From positions 149,054 to 213,053 of the forward strand of contig JALRME010000047.1 of assembly GCA_026120035.1 (NCBI GenBank): a stretch of 64,000 bases of DNA. Direction: 5' to 3'. Both the position numbers and the translations under genes were made by a program. Of this stretch, positions 9,932-32,620 are shown one piece after another. The notes under the pieces were generated by a model. The model was not told where the DNA came from. It worked only from the letters and a program-made list of their open reading frames with translations, and made no database searches. Positions within the stretch are counted from its first letter, which is position 1; every line of letters begins with the position of its first letter. Source of the DNA: Coleophoma eucalyptorum (lineage: Eukaryota; Ascomycota; Leotiomycetes; Helotiales; Dermateaceae).

Positions 9932-10060
9932 GGTCGATTGTGTTCATAACGGATTCGCTCAGAGCCGCCTTCTCACCTTGTTCTTTTTTCCTTACGCTCA
10001 TTTCAAAAACTTCCATTCGCTCAATAGGGTATCCCAAAAGAATATTTCATAGCTATCACG

Positions 10061-11246
10061 ATGCCACTGTTGAAGGCGGCAGTGGCTTTCTGGCTTCTGA
10101 GCGGTACCCTGGCTGAGTCTGTTTACTGGCCGCCCGTATACAACAATGTCACCTCCAACGTGGAGATCCTATCGGCTCCAAGCAACCTCGATGGCTTCAA
10201 GATGAATGCATCCGCTAAAATCGGTGGAGCGTTTGACTTTTGGTATTTTGATGTGGTTTCTGAAACAACCAACGCCGGTGTAAACATCGTTTTTTTCAAC
10301 ACTGGTGACTTTGCCGCGCAAGGCAACACACAACCACTAGCTGTTCAACTTACTGGAAAATTCGATAACGGCACCGAATTTAATGTGCAAACCTATGCTA
10401 CCGAAGGTGCTTATGTTAAAAACGACGAATGCGGTGTTGCTGGTGAGTGGATGGGTTCTGGTGCTAGCTTTACGGGTTCGAATTTACACGCACCAAATGT
10501 CACATACCAAATCACCTATGATGGAACAGCTGGGGGCGTTGAGGGAACAATCACTTTTCACGCTGTGAGTTACATCTGAGTGGCTTTTAACATTCCGCGC
10601 AATTCTTGCTAATTGTCATTCAACACAGAGAGCACCTGCCCATTTTCCATGCAATACTAAGGACGTTGCTGGTGCCACCGAGAATCTTCTCCCTTACCTA
10701 TTTTGGGCTAACGCTGTCCCTGATGCCGATGCAACTGTTAACCTTACTATTAATGGTACCCCTTTGAAAATTACCGATGGCGTTGGATACCACGATAAAA
10801 ACTGGGGCCAGAAGTCGGTTATCACTAGCCCCAAGTATTGGGACTGGGGCCATGCACGTGTTGGACCTTATTCAATTGTCTGGTATGACCTTGTTGACTA
10901 CAACAACAGCGAACACAACTACGCATACATTGCCAAGGATGGTGAGGCAATGTTTGTTGGCTGTGGTGGGACTACGGTCACAGCCCGCCGATGGGGAAAC
11001 CAGACTTACTCTCATCCGCCCACTGCCCCAACGACCGGACTTTTAGAAAACAAAGGATTGATCCTAACATATGAAACCGGCAACGAGAGACTAGTCTTTA
11101 ACGTTACGACAACTCGAATAATTCGTACTGAAACGGGAAGCGTCTACTCACGCGCTGTTGGCGATGTCTCTGGTGGAGTCGTAGGCGAGGAGAGCTATGA
11201 AGGCAGGGGTTTCTACGAGGAGTTCATCTATGGCGTTTTAGAGTAG
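10061..11246 (+). CDS. Secreted Diels-Alderase-like / CrtC-type lipocalin protein
   Basis: Two exons, 10061-10564 and 10629-11246, give about 373 aa. Residues 1-18 form a signal peptide (MPLLKAAVAFWLLSGTLAES). The body matches the fungal hydroxyneurosporene-synthase-like family that includes pericyclases such as CghA and Fsa2. Typical elements are FDFWYFDVVSE, the hallmark GVGYHDKNWG, and WGHARVGPYSIVWYD. Several N-glycosylation sequons are visible. Family members catalyse or shape cycloadditions in metabolite pathways; other members have unknown roles. No polyketide or peptide synthetase is seen in this window, so a Diels-Alder role on a PKS product is not supported here. Its closeness to two UstYa genes and the repeat precursor suggests a role on a cyclic peptide, which is inference. 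The gene is intact. Confidence 0.85.
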
Positions 11247-11934: not shown

Positions 11935-13114
11935 TCAGTCTCTAAGATCAGTAATAAAAGCCCCATTTGGGGGTTTTATCACGCCCTCTGTATCACTCCG
12001 CAGGACTCCGTTCTCATGTACGAACTGTCTAATTGCATTATAGTCGCTGCATGTGTGCATGCGTGCCATATCGCCTGCCAACTTCCCTTTTGAACCGTAC
12101 CACATAAAAGGCACTACAACGACAAGTTAGGGATAACATCTAGAAATAAATAAGAGATATTATGGATTTAAGATATTTCTAGAGAAGGAGCCCCCTGAAC
12201 TGATCATTTCCCTACTCATGACAGTCTGGGAAATGGGAACAATTGCTACTAGGAGTTACGTACCGACGCCTAGATCAGCGGTGCATGCGACACGGTTGCG
12301 AAGTATTTCAAGACAATGATCTGCGAACAAACATTTAGTTTTACTGCATTGTGTGACAGTCAATTAGACCAAAGAAAGAAAAGAAATCAATGAATAGGAA
12401 GCCTACCAACATGTTGAATTCTCCAACTCTCTAGTTCAGGAGGTTCACAATTTGGCGGGTGGCAGTTCTCTCGTGTATGCTCAATGTTGTAGTATAGATT
12501 CCTTCGAACCATGTTGATGCAGTGCATCTCATGAATCGCCTCGGGAAGAACAGGATAACCTTCCACGCCAAGGTCGGGCCTGTCAATGTATGCGTGCCGG
12601 GCAGGATCAATGTCTGCTTTCTCGGCATCCTCTCTTGGTATCATGATAAAGCCATCCTCTGTGAATTTCAGTTAGCATCTGGCTTTGATGCAACAGCAGT
12701 AATATGGAACTCACTTGATCCATCATACCACTTCCATTTATCATCAGCCTCGTCTGAGTTATGCTCTCTAAAAAAACTATTTTCCGGAGGATACCAGCTC
12801 ACGTTGATAAACGTAGGTGTAGGTGTCCTTACTAAACTGGCAAATGTCGGAGGAACACCTCCTGGTGGTTGATTGACGGGTTGTAAATATCGTTGTTTAG
12901 TGGCCTGTGTAAAAATAATAATAAAGATGGCGATTGAGTTGGAGATGCTGAGCACAATGATTGCTGCTACAGAGAATGGATTATTTCTCACATAGTCCCT
13001 CCAGTTTCTCGATCTTTTACGCCAAGCGTGCAGTGGAACAGAAAATCCGGATTCAGACAGCTGCTCCTTCGGAAGGAGTTCCTCGCTATCCTGTTCAGAT
13101 GAATCTCTCATCAT
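11935..13114 (-). CDS. UstYa-family (DUF3328) oxidase-like protein
   Basis: Four exons read on the minus strand: 13114-12715, 12658-12407, 12320-12264 and 12113-11935, all with GT-AG ends and consistent phases, giving about 295 aa. After a cytosolic N-terminus there is one membrane span at about residues 44-66 (FSVAAIIVLSISNSIAIFII). The luminal part carries two HxxHC motifs, HEMHC (exon 2) and HVDHC (exons 2/3), the signature of UstYa proteins that oxidatively cyclise dikaritin RiPPs such as ustiloxin. The last exon encodes the family-typical tail with a conserved Cys followed by SDYNAI. It diverges from the second HxxHC gene at 13592 (about 480 bp apart), so the two could share a promoter. 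The third intron (12263-12114, 150 nt) is longer than usual but keeps frame. Confidence 0.9.
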
Positions 13115-13591: not shown

Positions 13592-14326
13592 ATGAAGCCT
13601 GCAACGGATGCCTACGACAAGGTCGAATATAGTGGCCTAGACATGCGGCCGGTGCGCGTGAAGCACTGGAATCTGCTGTCTTTTACTACGGGCCTTGCAA
13701 CGAGCATCATCCTAGGTGCTATCGCATTGTCCATTTACGGCAGAATTTCTGCCCCAAAGACAGCAGCAGAAATTGAGGCCGAAGAATGGAACTATTGTGG
13801 ACGTTCTAGCGCCTCGGCCATGGAACGAGGATGTGTTATGGAACCTATGTTTTACGGTTGGATGCCGCCTCAGTGCGTGTATCAAGAGCTAACAACCACT
13901 CTGCCAATTTTTGAGGACCGACAGTATTATGTGTAATGAATATCCAAGCTGCATTCAAAAAGCCCACAAGCTCACGATAATATAGTGATGTGAACCTGAC
14001 GCAGCCGATACTGCAAGAGCAGCTTTGGGCTGGCGAGTATAACGTCATTTTCACGGACCGGTAAGTAGATATATTTCTGTATTTCTTCCGATTATGATAG
14101 TTCTGACGCTAAATATAGTTACCATGATGAGCATTGCTTGTTCCAGTGGAGGAAGTTGCATTATGCTGTCCATCATGGAATGGAGTTCATTGATAACAAG
14201 ACAATCAGCATTGGACACTCAAAACATTGTGCAGATGAGCTTTCCCGGAGCTGCGAGATAGCGAATGGCCCTCGTGCCAACTATGTTGAGCTTGGCTTCT
14301 ATCGCTGCCGCAAGACAATTTGGTAA
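13592..14326 (+). CDS. UstYb-like HxxHC membrane protein (UstYa superfamily)
   Basis: Three exons, 13592-13932, 13986-14060 and 14119-14326, give about 207 aa. One membrane span lies at residues 30-51 (LLSFTTGLATSIILGAIALSI). The luminal part has CGRSSASAMERGCVMEPMF and GWMPPQC, then two HxxHC motifs: HDEHC directly after the second junction and HSKHC near the end. This compact group (MEPMFYGWMPPQC, YHDEHC, FQWRKLHYA) is commonly found with DUF3328 genes. In ustiloxin biosynthesis UstYa and UstYb act together on the precursor. The gene points toward the repeat precursor 1.6 kb downstream. It looks intact. Assignment to the HxxHC superfamily is firm; orthology to UstYb itself is inferred. Confidence 0.87.
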
Positions 14327-15948: not shown

Positions 15949-16976
15949 ATGAAGATCACTATGCTGCTTACTATGCTCACGGCGACGAGCTTTGCCGCTC
16001 CGCTTGCAGAGCCTAATCCAAAGGCTGGTATGTTCTACGATTTATAATCAAGTATAGAACGAACATTAATAAAAATGTAGTCGAAAGTCTTAAGGAGACG
16101 CGTGGTTTTGATGGGAGTAAGTCTATATATTTTGCCCTTAGAGGTACAAAGTTAATCTCAACAAGTTTATATCGGCGCTGGTGCAGAGGGGGAGACTTCG
16201 GAAGAGAAAAAGCGTAACTTTGATGGGAGTAAGTCCATGTTATTTTCTCGTTAGGGATATAAAGTTAATGGTAGCTAGTTTACGTAGTTGCTGGCGAAGA
16301 AGGTGAGAGTGCCGAGAAAAAGAAGCGTAGCTTTGATGGGAGTAAGTCTATGTCCTTCTCTTATAAAATAAAAGATTAATAGTATATAGTTTATGTGCTT
16401 CCTGGTGTAGAGGGAGAAAGTTCTGAGAAGAAGCGTAGCTTTGATGGGAGTAAGTCTATGTCCTTCTCTTATAAAATAAAAGATTAACAGTGAACAGTTT
16501 ATGTGCTTCCTGGTGTAGAGGGAGAAAGTTCTGAGAAGAAGCGTAGCTTTGATGGGAGTAAGTCTATGTCCTTCTCTTATAAAATAAAAGATTAATNNNN
16601 NNNNNNNNNNNNNNNNNNNNNNNNNNNNNNNNNNNNNNNNNNNNNNNNNNNNNNNNNNNNNNNNNNNNNNNNNNNNNNNNNNNNNNNNNNNNNAATAGTA
16701 TATAGTTTATGTGCTTCCTGGTGTAGAGGGAGATAGTTCTGAAAAGAAGCGTAGCTTTGATGGGAGTAAGTCTATGTCCATCTCTTTTAAAAAAAAATAA
16801 AAGATTAATAGTTTATAGTTTATGTGCTTCCTGGTATAGAGGGAGATAGTTCTGAGAAAAAGAAGCGTAGCTTCGATGGGAGTAAGTTTTCTTTTCCCTT
16901 AACAAGATAAAAAAATTAATAGTACCTAGTCTACGTACTTCCTGGTGTTGAGGGAGATAGTTCTGAAAGCAAGTAG
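15949..16976 (+). CDS. Repeat-containing RiPP precursor, dikaritin-like, one core per mini-exon
   Basis: Exons: 15949-16027, 16081-16116, 16166-16228, 16279-16341, 16390-16449, 16498-16557, gap, 16706-16765, 16819-16881, 16930-16976. Exon 1 gives a signal peptide (MKITMLLTMLTATSFAAP). Exon 2 is a short leader ending RGFDG. Each later exon encodes one unit: I-Y core, acidic GE/GD-S-S-E spacer, KKR, then S/N-F-D-G. Cores are IYIGAG, IYVVAG, then IYVLPG in all others. Every intron is phase 1, so each exon is a symmetric module, and the last exon closes in frame with TAG. Cores in exons 5 and 9 differ by four synonymous changes, supporting selection on the peptide. KR sites fit Kex2 processing; YVLPG resembles the phomopsin core (YVIPID) and the first core recalls ustiloxin (YAIG). 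The copy number is uncertain because of the gap. Confidence 0.85.
16279..16929 (+). repeat. Tandem mini-exon/intron array, about 108 bp period
   Basis: Exon plus intron units of about 108-113 bp repeat with near identity from 16279 onward. The intron (GTAAGTCTATGTCCTTCTCT...TATAG) is as conserved as the exon, which points to recent tandem duplication or gene conversion of the whole unit. The first two core units (16166 and 16279) and the last unit are more diverged than the middle ones. Confidence 0.9.
16597..16693. other. Assembly gap (97 N) inside the repeat array
   Basis: The left side ends in ATTAAT and the right side resumes with AATAGTATATAG, both at the same place in the intron. The gap is close to one repeat period (about 108 bp), so one unit is the simplest guess, but collapsed repeats could hide more. 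Confidence 0.95.
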
Positions 16977-18250: not shown

Positions 18251-19846
18251 TTAGGCCTCATACACAATCTCTCCTTCAAACCACGTAGTTACAACGCTTG
18301 CCCCGTCAAATTCTCCTTTGCTCAAATCCTTGTTCACTGCAATAAAGTTCGCCTTCTTCCCAACTTCTATGCTGCCGAAATCCTTCTCCTTTCCTACTGC
18401 CTCCGCTCCAGCTAGTGTTAGCATCCTACAAATCTTCTCTCCCCCAACTGCCTTGTCTCCATTACCGACTGCTGCAACAATTCCATTCATAAAAGGCAGC
18501 AAGTCCGGCGTACTGCCTGCCCCCCAATCACTCCCAATTGTATTATGTGCACCCACGGTCAACATTTTAGGGAAATTCCAGTTCATTAGTCCCCCGCTTA
18601 CCTCAGTAACAGGGTGCGCGAAAAAGAAAGCGGGCGACATCTCAGCTGTTACATTTAGCTCTTTGAATCGGCGATATTCGTCATCGTGAACTCCACTGCA
18701 GTGAGCGATTTCGTGTCGGGGTCCATTAGGATTCGTCTTGCGCGCTTCTTCAAATGCATTGAGTGCGAGACGTGTGCTACCTTGACCTGTACAATGGATC
18801 TTCATTGTCATGCCTAGGGCGTCATACTTCTGTACCGCATCTTTTACATTCAGGATAAAGAGCTTCGACTCGTCAGCTGTACCATCTTCTTGGAGACCCG
18901 CGTGTGAGAAATATGGTGGGAGGGGAACACCATCGAGGATTATTTTCACAAAGCGGGTGTCCACGTGGTTTGACTTGTAGGTAGCTGCTTCGTCAAGCAG
19001 GGTGTGCAGCGTTGAGCTGTTTTCCCCGCCAATCCAATCCGGAGCGTACACGATATGTGTGTGCATATTGATTTTCAAGGCACCTTCGGCGTCCAACTCG
19101 CGGAGAGATTGAAGCATAAGAGTGTTTGCGGATGCTTCCTGACAACTCGTTACGCCGGCGCGGTGGAGCATATGTTGGGCTTCCTTGAGGACTCGCTTGC
19201 AATGGGCAAGGTTTGGGTGTGGCAGCGTGGTGAGGACCTTGCTCATGCTCATCTCAGCCATTTCACCGGTTAAATGGCCGTTTTCGTCTCGTCGGTAGAC
19301 GCTGCCTTGGGTGTCAGCCTCGGAAGTAATGTCGTATCCTGAGCGTCTTAGGGCCTCGCTGTTAAGATAAACGTTATGGCCAGCACCGCCACGAATCACG
19401 ACCGGAACATCTGGATAGTCCTTGTCAAGGGACTCACGAGCAAAGTTTTCAATCATGAAAGTATGGCCCACGACCCAGTCCTCGTTTGCATGAGCATACT
19501 TGCATAGACAACCACATTTATTCAGCTCTTCAACCACATTGGATGAGCTCAGTCCCTCCATTGGTAGTTGAATTTGAGATGTTAATGACACCGCGGAGAG
19601 CAGCATGTGGACATGGGCATCGTGGATGCCAGGCATAATAAATTGGCCCCTAAGATCGTAGATCAGAAGATGGTGTTGCTTTGCTTTCGCTTCAATCTCT
19701 GCCGTGGTGCCGATGGCAGCGATTATGCCATCTGGAGCCACGATAAATGCTTCAGCCCATGGCGCTTGGTAGTTGATCGTATATACCCGTCCATTAGTAT
19801 AGGCAACCCCGTTGCTCAGTGACGTTGACGATACGGTGGATGTCAT
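18251..19846 (-). CDS. Amidohydrolase 3 family protein (YtcJ-like)
   Basis: A single uninterrupted frame of 531 aa. The metal-binding HxH motif is in MPGIHDAHVHM; further family elements are RGGAGHNVYLNSEALRRSG, GEMAEMSMSKVL, RFVKIILDGVPLPP, MKIHCTGQGSTRLALNAFE, HEIAHCSGVHDDEYRRF and IGSDWGAGSTPDLLPFMNGI, with a final VGKKANFIAVNKDL beta-sandwich return. Members hydrolyse amide bonds of diverse small substrates using one or two metal ions. There is no signal peptide, so a cytosolic site is likely. It is the first intact gene after the RiPP precursor and could be a tailoring hydrolase, but this family is common outside clusters. The gene is full length for the family. Confidence 0.92.
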   Translation of the reverse strand: MTSTVSSTSLSNGVAYTNGRVYTINYQAPWAEAFIVAPDGIIAAIGTTAEIEAKAKQHHLLIYDLRGQFIMPGIHDAHVHMLLSAVSLTSQIQLPMEGLSSSNVVEELNKCGCLCKYAHANEDWVVGHTFMIENFARESLDKDYPDVPVVIRGGAGHNVYLNSEALRRSGYDITSEADTQGSVYRRDENGHLTGEMAEMSMSKVLTTLPHPNLAHCKRVLKEAQHMLHRAGVTSCQEASANTLMLQSLRELDAEGALKINMHTHIVYAPDWIGGENSSTLHTLLDEAATYKSNHVDTRFVKIILDGVPLPPYFSHAGLQEDGTADESKLFILNVKDAVQKYDALGMTMKIHCTGQGSTRLALNAFEEARKTNPNGPRHEIAHCSGVHDDEYRRFKELNVTAEMSPAFFFAHPVTEVSGGLMNWNFPKMLTVGAHNTIGSDWGAGSTPDLLPFMNGIVAAVGNGDKAVGGEKICRMLTLAGAEAVGKEKDFGSIEVGKKANFIAVNKDLSKGEFDGASVVTTWFEGEIVYEA

Positions 19847-20683
19847 ATTTTTGAATCTGCTAGCGATCTAAAAGTTTTGGTAGAAGAGAGAAGAAAAAGC
19901 CGCGGTAAAATGAAACGAACAGCGAATGTTATACTATAGCAATTTATATTTACGTGATCTCAATCACATGACGGTGAGAAAATAGTTCAATGTCAAGAAT
20001 TGAGAGGTGGGAAAAATAGAGATGGAGAGAACTGGCAGGTGCGGCACGCAACTATCTCTCATTGGTAGACATGCAACGATTGTCAAGTGCTACCAAGTCT
20101 CAGCCTGCAGTGGGTTGGCGGCGCAAGTCACCTACGGATCGTACAACAGGGCAAGCGCAGTAATACCAAGGTCTAGAATAACTATGCCGAAGGGGTGGTT
20201 TGGACCCACCGTAGGCTCGATTACACTTAGTATCACTGAGCGAAACAGGGATTTACTCTATGCAATCCACTGATCATACCTCGTCGAAGCGAAGTTTGGA
20301 GCGTGCCTTATCAGAACCTCAACTACTACCATTCATTCTTGACTAAGCAAAACTACTGGTAACAAATCGTAACATTAGTTACTCTTCGCCATAGAATATT
20401 GTTCTTGTCTTAAAACTCAATGAAACACGAAACATAGAGGTGACATTAGGAAGCGACCTCTTTGCGAAAGTTGATAATACCCTCAACCGAAGTTCTACCC
20501 ATGAAGCCGATGTGGCAGCAGACGGTGTTTCCAGTGCAACTCTTTGCTCAAAGAAAGCGTGGTTAGCTTGTAAGGCCTTCCTCTGAACCTAATGTTAATG
20601 CAGAAAAGAAAATATAATATTAGAGACGGCAACTATACTTCTGCTAGTTTCGTACAGATATTTGTCAAAAGAATATACGGCTT
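19847..20683. other. Intergenic
   Basis: No supportable gene. A plus-strand open frame at 20007-20273 has no family features. The stretch near 19860-19960 is probably the amidohydrolase promoter. Confidence 0.5.
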
Positions 20684-24606: not shown

Positions 24607-26154
24607 TTATGCCAATTCTACTTCAATCAGACTCTCAGTCCCCCTCTCATAAGTATATATCTCAACAATTTTTAAACCTGCCTTCTCTATCAACTTTCTC
24701 CAGGAATCCTCAGTTCTTTCCATTGAAGCAAAAGCACTCAACATCATGATATCGAGCCCGGTTGTAGTATAGTGCGCATTATGGGCTGGAATTACATTTT
24801 CGTTGATTAGAATTTTACTATATCCTTTTTTGAGTGCTGGCTTAAGATTTTCAAGAATATCAAGGCACTTGGACTCCGGCCAGTCATGAAGAATAGAGTG
24901 GAGGTAATATGCTCTAGCCCCTGCAGAGTTCGTTAGCTTTTATCAGAAGAAAGAGATCTCTTTCTATGAAGAAAGGTGCAAAACTACCTTGGATGGGTTG
25001 CTCTGTAAAGAAATCGTGTGCCATTTTCTCAATCTTTTCAGGTAAATCTTTCGCGGCCGCGATCACAGTTGGTGTGTCTTGTAAGACCAGTCTACCTGCA
25101 AGACCGCAATGTTGCTTGTAGAACTCCACAACATCGTGACCAATTCCGCCACCAACATCTACCAGTAGTATTGCTTCTGGATCCTTACTTAGCCCAAAGC
25201 CAAGATTTTCCTCGACTGGGTAACAGCCCTTATCCATCCAGCGTGCTCGTGACATACTGTATCCTGCCATGTGATTATTGAACTTATCTAGTAGTCCTGG
25301 TGTACTAGCAAACAACTCAAACGCGTGGAGTGTAGTATTGTGGCCGGCTTGCATTGGGGAATTCATGGGGTCGGTACAGTTTCTATATTTAGTGTCCGAA
25401 AGAAACTTCGGAAGGGAAATATAGATCCCTGAAAATGCACCTTCTCTGTTTTGTGTTAGTAATCCAACATGAGATAGTATCCAAGTACATCGCCAAGATA
25501 AATAAAAAAGAACGTCTCATAATATATCCTACTATGGTCCAAATATATTTTTAGGTTAAGATTTACAGAAGTAAATACTTACACAAATGGAATCCCGCTA
25601 CTGTAGACTGGATTCAGCATGGATTTTGAGAGTCTGGTGTGAGCATAAACATCTGGACTGATTTCACTGATGAATGACATTGCGGAAAGATGTTTAAGGA
25701 TGCGACCTAAGTGGTGTATTAGTAAGAACTATCATAAATCGAAACTGTATCTCAAGTTATTCAACTTTACCTAACAGGATCGGATCTGAGCCTGTCATCT
25801 CAGCCAACTCTTGACAGCTCTTTGGGTCACCATTATTCTCATTCATTTTGAGAAATAGTTCCAAATTCATTGCAGTACAAATAAGAGGCATGAGTGGCTT
25901 CTACGTACAATTAGATAATTTAACGAATGAGTATAGAATGTAAGTGCACTTACTTCAGCCCACCCCATCCTCAAAATTGCTTCCATTGGAGTTTCCAGTG
26001 CAAGGAATAGAGAACGAGTGGTCTCAGCGAGATCCTTGCGAGATTTCGAGTTTTTCAGGTCTAAACTCAAACCCTTAATAAGAACCTGCTTGAGAAGAGG
26101 TAATACCTCATCCTTGGTAGGGTAGAGAGAGTCAAAATTTTGACTAATATCCAT
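24607..26154 (-). CDS. SAM-dependent O-methyltransferase (COMT-like)
   Basis: Five exons on the minus strand: 26154-25954, 25900-25771, 25706-25583, 25445-24988 and 24920-24607, all with GT-AG ends and matching phases, total about 408 aa. The N-terminal winged-helix dimerisation region has CQELAEMTGSDPILLGRILKHL. The Rossmann part has the SAM motif LLVDVGGGIGHDVVEF, and the catalytic region reads YYLHSILHDWPESKC with the general-base His; ILINENVIP and GLDIMMLSAF complete the pattern. Enzymes of this type methylate hydroxyls of aromatic or polyketide-like metabolites in the cytosol. It is divergently placed against the Zn2Cys6 regulator at 26861, a common cluster arrangement. It might act on the RiPP product or in a separate small cluster; sequence does not decide. 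Confidence 0.92.
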
Positions 26155-30438: not shown

Positions 30439-32620
30439 TCACCTCAGATGATTGCTTCTCTGGATACAAATAGAACAATTTGTATGGCTCAGATCAAAAG
30501 CATTCTTTTTGAATACCTCAGACTCTTTCGCTACTTCACGCTCATTTCGATCTGAGATCTTGCGGATGACTCGATTTGCCTTATTTCGACGATATATCTC
30601 ATCCACAGCTGCCTTGTCATGCTCCTGCTGGGGTGTGTCTTCTGCAACAGTGGTTCGGCTTCTGTTGAGGTATGCATTGATAGGACCAAGATTTACTAAT
30701 GTGTTTGGAGAATGTGGTGGTTGGGCTTCTTCATCAGCATTCTTGGAGACATGCGTGGATTGGACGAGTGTGTTGAAACCATCTATTTGTTCAACAAACT
30801 CCCCGCAGAAGATAGCATCACAGGAGAGTCCGGGTAGAATATGGAAGTTCATCTTGACTTTGTCCATAGAGCCAGCCAATCTTTACAGAAACACATACCT
30901 GGCCCACAGTCTCGGCAAGCGATCCATCTGCTTGTTGTATCAGCATCCTTGACCTTCGTCGCTGATCGATCTTGAATCCGTTCTTGTGCGCGCATTCCAG
31001 TGACATGAAATCGTCGTCAGATCCACTGTCAGCAAGGCCAATTACAGTATGACTTTCAGCTGTGAAACAGATTCGATTGTTTGGAGAACCAATATACTTA
31101 AGAGTTGGTAATCCACCAAACCAGTTCGGACATCTCTCTAAGAGTTGTTTGTTCTTTTCGTAGAGTCTTATTTTCTTGATAAATCGTTCTCCCATAATTA
31201 CTGGGGCAATGCACTTCTTCAACACATAAAACCAGCGCTCTTCTGGAGGATTGGCGCAAGAAACTAGGCCGCAGCTCACTAGTGTTCGACCAATCGATCG
31301 AACCTCTGGCTTAGTGCCTAACTTGAATGAAACTTTGTCTTCTTCATTCCGGCTGATGTGAAGTCTATGCTGATTGGCAAAGTCCCCTGAACAAATATCC
31401 ATCTCTGATCCAGAATCGGGTCGTGCTAAACATTCGTTGCCATTGAGACTAACTCGAATTGCTTTTCTGAAAAATGACGAGGATTTGGCATATACTTTGG
31501 GTGCATAAGATAGTACCGCGTGAAAGTTGCTCGACAGATCTGAACACCAGTCTCTTATAATACTAGTCCAGACATCCATATCCCCATAATTTTTCTGATT
31601 GCCCTCAAATTATGATTGAAGTCTGCAAGACATCTAATCCATGTGTCTTCAAATGCTGGATTAACCTCATGAAGGAGGTCCATTATTGTATATGCGAGCT
31701 CCATAAAGTTCAATTTGTAGTGTAAGTCACCTAGTGATTCTGGGAGACTATCTTTGAGCAACTCTAGGAAAGAAAGCATGTCATGCCGCCACCTTCGTGC
31801 TGGCATTGCGTATTTCGAAGCGAGGCGACGGAGTGCGGGGCTCGCCGATGGATGCTGGCTAGCAAGAAAGAAGTCATGATGTTCGTGTAGGAGGGTTCTA
31901 TGGAGAGCAATCAAGGATTACCATTGCTCATTGTTAAATTTTGACTGCGCTCCAGTGTCTGCTTGCGCTAACTGGCTTGTCGCTTGTCCACCTCGATACA
32001 TTTTGTCTCTACCATTACCAGACCAGCGTATATACCCTTCACTTCAGCAACGAGCTGCTCTTGCGAGATTGGTCGTGCTTCTGGTTCCAGTATAATACTA
32101 TAGCCAGCTGTCAATACTGGTGAATTTCCAGTTGATGATTCCACTCCGCAACTCGGTATGATTGAAGAAGTTGAATTGCCATTGTGGATGTTTTGACTGG
32201 ATTGAGGCATAGGTTGTGACCCTTGTGTCCCGAGCTTCTGCGACTTTATAGATGCAAATTTTCCGGAGTCAAAAGATCTCTTTACTATGGGAGAATCCTG
32301 ATCAGGATTCCATAATTTCTTACTTGGCATGTGAGGTCTTTGGTGGGAGGTCTTTTCAAGATCGGACTGCGCAAATGAAAGCGATATTGTTCGTGCCCTT
32401 CGAGAAGTAGAGCCTGCGGAGAGACCATCTCCCTCTTCGCAAAGAGTGTCGATATTCAGTTGTTGAAGCCCTACCGGCTGCCGTAGTGCAGAGGAAGTCG
32501 GGCTTGATAGCGGTCTCTTGATCTCTCCAGGAAAGTTTTCACACGGGAGATTTTGAGGCCGAGGAAATAGGGACTTTGGGGATGACGGCTCATTCTGGGT
32601 CGTCCTAAGATTTTAAAAAT
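30439..32620 (-). pseudogene. EST1-like fragment joined to a retropepsin-like domain, frameshifted
   Basis: Read on the minus strand, an N-terminal low-complexity region (about 32620-31970) leads to YAGLVMVETKCIEVDKRQA. The next part is EST1-like as seen in many fungi: IALHRTLLHEHHDFFLASQH, SPALRRLASKYAMPARRWRH, LAYTIMDLLHEVNPAFEDTW. The following part (about 31560-30880) has two retropepsin-like signatures, PDSGSEMDIC and LADSGSDDDFMS, then NFHILPGLSCDAIFCGEF. The frame breaks near 32000 (one-base shift in an A run), at a TAA near 31925 where relatives have Gln, near 31590, and near 30865. I therefore call it a pseudogene. Spliced-out breaks or sequencing errors in A runs are possible alternatives. 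Whether the two domains were ever one protein is unclear. Confidence 0.6.

Follow-up and report, generated by a model that had tools for sequence, protein, structure and literature searches.

Dikaritins, namely the ustiloxins, phomopsins, asperipin-2a and victorin, are characterised by a precursor with a signal peptide and repeated, Kex2-flanked cores, and by a UstYa/DUF3328 gene (PMC9632046, PMC9233826, PMC7329392); the route involves secretion, cleavage by Kex2 at KR sites and cross-linking of the core by UstYa-type enzymes (PMC9233826, PMC7329392). Ustiloxins and phomopsins have the cores YVIP, YVIG and YAIG, in which Tyr and Ile are linked, and a tyrosinase is required for the corresponding cyclisations (PMC7329392). 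In Epichloe, the precursor GigA carries kexin-site repeats and has a UstYa-like cyclase gene in its cluster (PMC8982410), and in the epichloecyclins the link is formed between the N-terminal Ile and an internal Tyr (PMC9233826).

The locus presented here was found in a stretch of 64 kb, hereafter the window (C43:149054-213053), within a genome of 45.26 Mb. With a probability of roughly 85%, it encodes the multicore precursor of a dikaritin-type RiPP, i.e. UstYa-modified and Kex2-processed, lying beside likely modifying enzymes, a reading for which the gene structure and the neighbourhood are supported at the sequence level. Like the dikaritins, it associates a predicted signal peptide, repeated Kex2-flanked cores with Tyr in the repeat and a nearby UstYa gene, and it differs from them in carrying its cores on separate mini-exons, a contrast drawn independently of the exon structures of the dikaritin genes. 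The dikaritin-type precursor proposed in an earlier sequence-only reading of this DNA is supported: the locus combines a signal peptide with tandem modules and dibasic sites, and a UstYa gene lies close by.

Regarding processing, cross-linking and product, we infer the following route. Splicing would supply each module, consisting of a core, an acidic follower and a KKR site, from one symmetrical phase-1 mini-exon; the signal peptide would take the precursor protein into the secretory pathway, where Kex2 cleavage after the KR sites could free units of about 20 residues. UstYa, possibly together with a second protein bearing two HxxHC motifs, would then introduce an oxidative cross-link at the conserved Tyr of the core, which would be trimmed to a small cyclic peptide built around (F-D-G)-I-Y-V-L-P-G.

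The nature of this peptide can be narrowed by comparison with the known families. The sequence-only reading had considered YVLPG as close to the phomopsin core, a resemblance that turns out to be weak: the cores of the window begin with YVL, YVV or YIG, so that Leu, Val or Gly occupies the second position after Tyr instead of the Ile of ustiloxins and phomopsins, and a Y-x-I core occurs in none. Besides the tyrosinase, an S41 peptidase is a cluster feature of the ustiloxin and phomopsin pathways. None of the 28 tyrosinase (PF00264) matches listed for the genome lies on contig C43, and neither does any of the two listed for S41 peptidases (PF03572); because the contig has no match to either family, a full ustiloxin or phomopsin pathway is not what this locus encodes, and a phomopsin-like product was rejected as too specific, considering both the core position and these missing enzymes. 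With GigA and the epichloecyclins, the window shares kexin-site repeats, a UstYa gene and the presence of both Ile and Tyr in the core, the two residues being adjacent here, unlike in the epichloecyclins; in this comparison, which concerns peptides and clusters and leaves gene structures aside, the Ile-Tyr pair may be seen as a loose parallel to the epichloecyclin Ile/Tyr link. Elsewhere in the genome, a tyrosinase match (G000:C11:330654-331181, - strand) starts some 0.9 kb away from the start of a UstYa match, and no repeat array was found near this pair in the 7 kb stretch inspected (L043).

Predicted exon chain of the precursor gene and its Xylaria scruposa homolog

The precursor extends over 15949-16976 on the + strand, with the signal peptide followed by tandem IY modules, and can be read as follows.

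15949..16027, + strand: exon 1, start codon and predicted signal peptide, MKITMLLTMLTATSFAAPLAEPNPKA; ends in phase 1, with donor GTATGT at 16028
16081..16116, + strand: exon 2, VESLKETRGFDG, leader end and first F-D-G ahead of the array; the TAG acceptor ends at 16080
16166..16228, + strand: first module exon, IYIGAGAEGETSEEKKRNFDG, with YIGAG; non-canonical acceptor AAG
16279..16341, + strand: module exon, IYVVAGEEGESAEKKKRSFDG
16390..16449, + strand: module exon, IYVLPGVEGESSEKKRSFDG
16498..16557, + strand: module exon, peptide identical to that of exon 16390..16449
16597..16693, no strand: assembly gap, a run of 97 N, both edges being intron sequence
16706..16765, + strand: module exon, IYVLPGVEGDSSEKKRSFDG
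16819..16881, + strand: module exon, IYVLPGIEGDSSEKKKRSFDG
16930..16976, + strand: last exon, IYVLPGVEGDSSESK followed by the stop; shorter and without KR site

As the run of N interrupts the array, only the readable IY modules (n=7) can be counted. In exon 1, hydropathy peaks at 1.96 over residues 3-11 and small residues come next (hydropathy profile and inspection by eye), which is consistent with the N-terminal signal peptide expected of a dikaritin precursor. Each readable IY exon opens, after a phase-1 intron, with a split Ile codon and then Tyr, Ile immediately preceding Tyr in 7/7 of these modules, and the full module corresponds to I-Y-x-x-x-G-x-E-G-[E/D]-x-x-E-(E)-K-K-(K)-R-[S/N]-F-D-G, one per exon. 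The six full IY exons measure 63, 63, 60, 60, 60 and 63 nt, and the seven introns free of N measure 53, 49, 50, 48, 48, 53 and 48 nt, all in phase 1, with GTAAGT as donor in six and GTATGT in one, and with YAG as acceptor in six and AAG in one. What had been claimed from the letters alone is therefore accurate for the phase-1 exons of 60-63 nt, as well as for the signal peptide, the IY modules, the acidic spacer and the stop; the introns, given as about 48 nt, range in fact from 48 to 53 nt, and the KKR site ascribed to every module is found, as KKR or KKKR, in 6/7 readable modules, the last one having no KR.

That each core is supplied by its own phase-1 mini-exon of 60-63 nt is supported by several features of the array. 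All six full module exons have lengths that are multiples of 3, compared with three of the six N-free array introns, and an in-frame stop is present inside five of these six introns, the one after exon 2 being the exception. Counted over all pairs, which are not independent of each other, aligned identities amount to 777/909 for the exons vs. 528/712 for the introns, the exons being the more alike, and the differences between exons of equal length are distributed as 12/9/31 over codon positions 1/2/3, a third-position bias, although by codon 22 of the differences count as nonsynonymous and 19 as synonymous. In a scan of the 64 kb window for repeated [KR]R contexts, covering both strands and all frames, this locus alone was flagged; at the genome scale, a degenerate 25-base pattern combining the site and the donor, with up to 2 mismatches allowed, matched seven times in 45.26 Mb, all of them here (six exact and one with one mismatch), a reversed control giving 1 match. 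The four Pfam matches of the precursor (best OCC1, E 2.8e-5) all fell below the cut-off and were dismissed.

Within the array, copies of a 104-nt repeat are 95-96% identical to the reference copy and the other copies 64-66%, which suggests that whole exon-plus-intron units have been duplicated recently. Since the internal array exons are in phase 1 at both ends, such units could be gained or lost without frameshift, in line with the 95-96% identity. The exon with the AAG acceptor (16166..16228) is possibly decayed or skipped and, the array exons being phase-compatible, it could be skipped without shifting the frame. One may extend the argument of decay to the entire gene, which would then be a repeat array with splice-like remnants from which the full precursor is no longer made, the AAG acceptor standing at the very first IY exon and the assembly gap offering room to conceal damage; this is very improbable given that all readable exons are open and in frame, that third-position changes are favoured and that the array ends in a stop.

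The comparison with other fungi brings a further line of evidence for the exon-per-module reading. A precursor homolog, P0014, was found in Xylaria scruposa (E 4.7e-5, the match covering 35% of the precursor query) as the sole match at E<=1 among 892 candidates; at this threshold and among these candidates, neither Hyphodiscus nor Mollisia, both of which have the UstYa gene, yielded a homolog. P0014 has three modules, with the cores YNV, YGV and YIV, in which Tyr is preceded by Ile in two and by Leu in the third, and one of them, NFDGIYGVAPGDEGEVAEKR, is continuous across the predicted DG|IY junction. Scored against the P0014 protein, each of the five window modules tried (out of seven) exceeded all 2000 shuffles (49-67, with shuffle maxima of 38-44), when two read-through, i.e. 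unspliced, peptides scored just 18 and 19; as P0014 had been picked with the spliced precursor as query, this module test counts as support rather than as a blind test. One core per mini-exon, as first proposed, is thus backed by sequence evidence that includes a protein crossing the junction, and the module pattern, whose absence from all relatives had been named as the finding that would speak against it, is carried by the X. scruposa protein. The same data bear on the idea that the introns are plain tandem-repeat spacer, the true gene being limited to the first exons and a short read-through. The stop-free intron after exon 2 (one of six array introns) would permit it, but the stops in the five others, the recurrence of donors and acceptors at the same place, the crossing of the junction by P0014 and the low scores of the read-through peptides against those of the spliced modules make it the least credible of the explanations considered.

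The UstYa gene, a second double-HxxHC family and the neighbourhood

Around the precursor, the following genes were delineated.

11935..13114, - strand: UstYa (DUF3328) gene, four exons at 12715-13114, 12407-12658, 12264-12320 and 11935-12113
13592..14326, + strand: second double-HxxHC gene, exons at 13592-13932, 13986-14060 and 14119-14326
10028-11243: Diels-Alderase/AsqO-type protein, further out from the precursor
18254-19867: amidohydrolase, further out from the precursor
24610-25516: O-methyltransferase, further out from the precursor

The UstYa protein matches PF11807 with 132.1 bits (E 3.5e-38), and its two HxxHC motifs, HEMHC and HVDHC, are invariant in 9/9 aligned sequences; 13 homologs were retrieved, the best of which is 73% identical and covers 100% of the query. 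The start of the gene lies 2.8 kb from that of the precursor with one gene in between, in agreement with the UstYa neighbour typical of dikaritins. For two neighbouring genes, the closest protein relatives are from Hyphodiscus and Mollisia, which belong to the Helotiales, so that the source fungus is probably a leotiomycete. In X. scruposa, P0014, the UstYa homolog P0004 and the second-gene homolog P0017 are all on contigs of 644,296 bases. Homologs of the two enzyme genes are on equal-sized contigs for 5/13 UstYa homologs, namely in X. scruposa, Mollisia scopiformis, Poronia punctata, Xylariomycetidae sp. FL0641 and on a 5,239-base contig (P0012, P0042), the other 8/13 having no listed partner. 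From the equal sizes, we infer one shared contig in each of these cases, for all three genes in X. scruposa and for the two enzyme genes in the others.

These neighbours help in weighing whether the locus could instead encode a Kex2-processed repeat protein giving linear secreted peptides, pheromone- or effector-like, with UstYa a mere neighbour. Linear KEPs, mating factors among them, indeed also have a signal peptide and KR-bounded repeats, and no DUF3328 neighbour accompanies 78% of the 7878 KEPs surveyed (PMC7329392). Pheromone and mating-factor KEPs, however, are reported to be without DUF3328 neighbours save for three exceptions (PMC7329392), while here the UstYa gene starts only 2.8 kb away and the trio has its homologs on equal-sized contigs in X. 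scruposa; moreover, Tyr is conserved in 7/7 readable window modules and in 3/3 modules of X. scruposa. Linear peptides are thus an unlikely, although the most serious, alternative to the cross-linked, dikaritin-type product.

The second gene is placed between the UstYa gene and the precursor, and its product has a hydrophobic N-terminal stretch (as judged by eye). Its two HxxHC motifs, HDEHC and HSKHC, are invariant in 18/18 sequences of an alignment comprising 17 of 59 homologs and the window protein. No Pfam family was found for the window protein and, over the 18 members, four families were each matched by one member, with UstYa (PF11807) at E 0.03. A plain membership of the UstYa family was unsupported, the profile comparison giving a probability of 2%. 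A genome search for this second family returned 16 matches, three of them from the window's own gene, and 13 places elsewhere, of which ten have a PF11807 match no more than 6 kb away, a radius chosen after the list was seen and a count in which several places share one cluster. The three places away from UstYa are on C4, on C90 and at C56:124809. The frames were read at 6/13 places, five with two HxxHC motifs and the sixth, C16:571548, with one before a stop. The second family accompanies UstYa genes on C7, C16, C56, C9, C26 and C89 of G000. Based on its motifs and neighbourhood, the second protein is possibly linked to UstYa, and this double-HxxHC family, which Pfam does not model, could serve as a second handle for locating such clusters.

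Further out in the window, at 30821-31609 (- strand), a weak gag aspartyl protease match, below the cut-off, is perhaps a transposon remnant.

Repeat precursors in the same genome and the exon-per-core layout

At least 51 UstYa matches are present in the genome and were grouped by hand into 28 neighbourhoods, of which 25, namely the window and 24 stretches of 7-10 kb, were examined, those on C36, C13 and C9 falling outside this set. An array with at least three KR-bounded copies was detected in 5/25 neighbourhoods, i.e. the window, L009, L012, L018 and L027, in a search from which more degenerate arrays could escape; L024 was excluded since it has two copies only. Like the window, L012, L018, L027 and L024 display KR-bounded repeats around UstYa matches, but with consecutive repeats in one open frame and no intron between them. 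Two of the five arrays, those of the window and L009, have one phase-1 intron per repeat, L012, L018 and L027 being uninterrupted. The second interrupted gene is located as follows.

L009 about 2063-2669, - strand: YGSYGSYGTYKR repeat gene, with a UstYa match at L009:4759-5352

The three exons read measure 81, 186 and 174 nt, each a multiple of 3, and the introns 52, 52 and 62 nt. As in the window precursor, there is one phase-1 intron per repeat, and the repeat opens with a split codon; unlike in the window precursor, the core is unrelated, the repeat exons are longer and each full one (n=2) contains two KR sites. A unique layout for the window precursor was rejected in view of L009, with its one intron per repeat, and the layout held to be unusual by the sequence-only reading deserves this adjective with the reservation that a second such precursor occurs in the same genome.

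A UstYa-linked multicore precursor is of a known kind, of which the exon-per-core layout is a variant. In the open-access literature covered, part of which was off-topic, no description was found of fungal RiPP precursors with a separate exon for each core. Introns within the repeats of Venturia cin1/cin3 may have been described before. Cin3 has been termed a dikaritin precursor (PMC9632046). As for the KEP survey, words starting with intron, exon or splic are absent from its main text (PMC7329392). Tentatively, and at somewhat less than even odds, exon-per-core could be a recurrent way to build multicore fungal RiPP precursors, with a second, Pfam-unmodelled double-HxxHC family accompanying UstYa. 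If so, a core could be duplicated, dropped from the gene or left out through splicing, all without frameshift, and one gene could deliver different sets of cores. UstYa clusters without recognisable repeat precursor have been reported, e.g. in two lichen clans (PMC12048977). With its 60-base exons and the stops in its introns, the window precursor could escape a search for a repeat-bearing open reading frame; as exon-per-core genes would be hard for repeat or ORF searches, they may explain part of such clusters. The layout thus provides a concrete search pattern, together with a testable idea on the evolution of core number or its change by splicing.

Among the five precursor arrays, runs of N occur within three, namely those of the window (16597-16693), L018 and L027, and only readable copies were counted. 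L028 was excluded from the arrays, being flagged solely on the strand opposite the likely gene, the repeats of which have no KR; this gene (L028 about 1190-2020, - strand), some 3 kb from a UstYa match, probably encodes a secreted protein, the repeats of which abound in HHKGKAAKGAA units.
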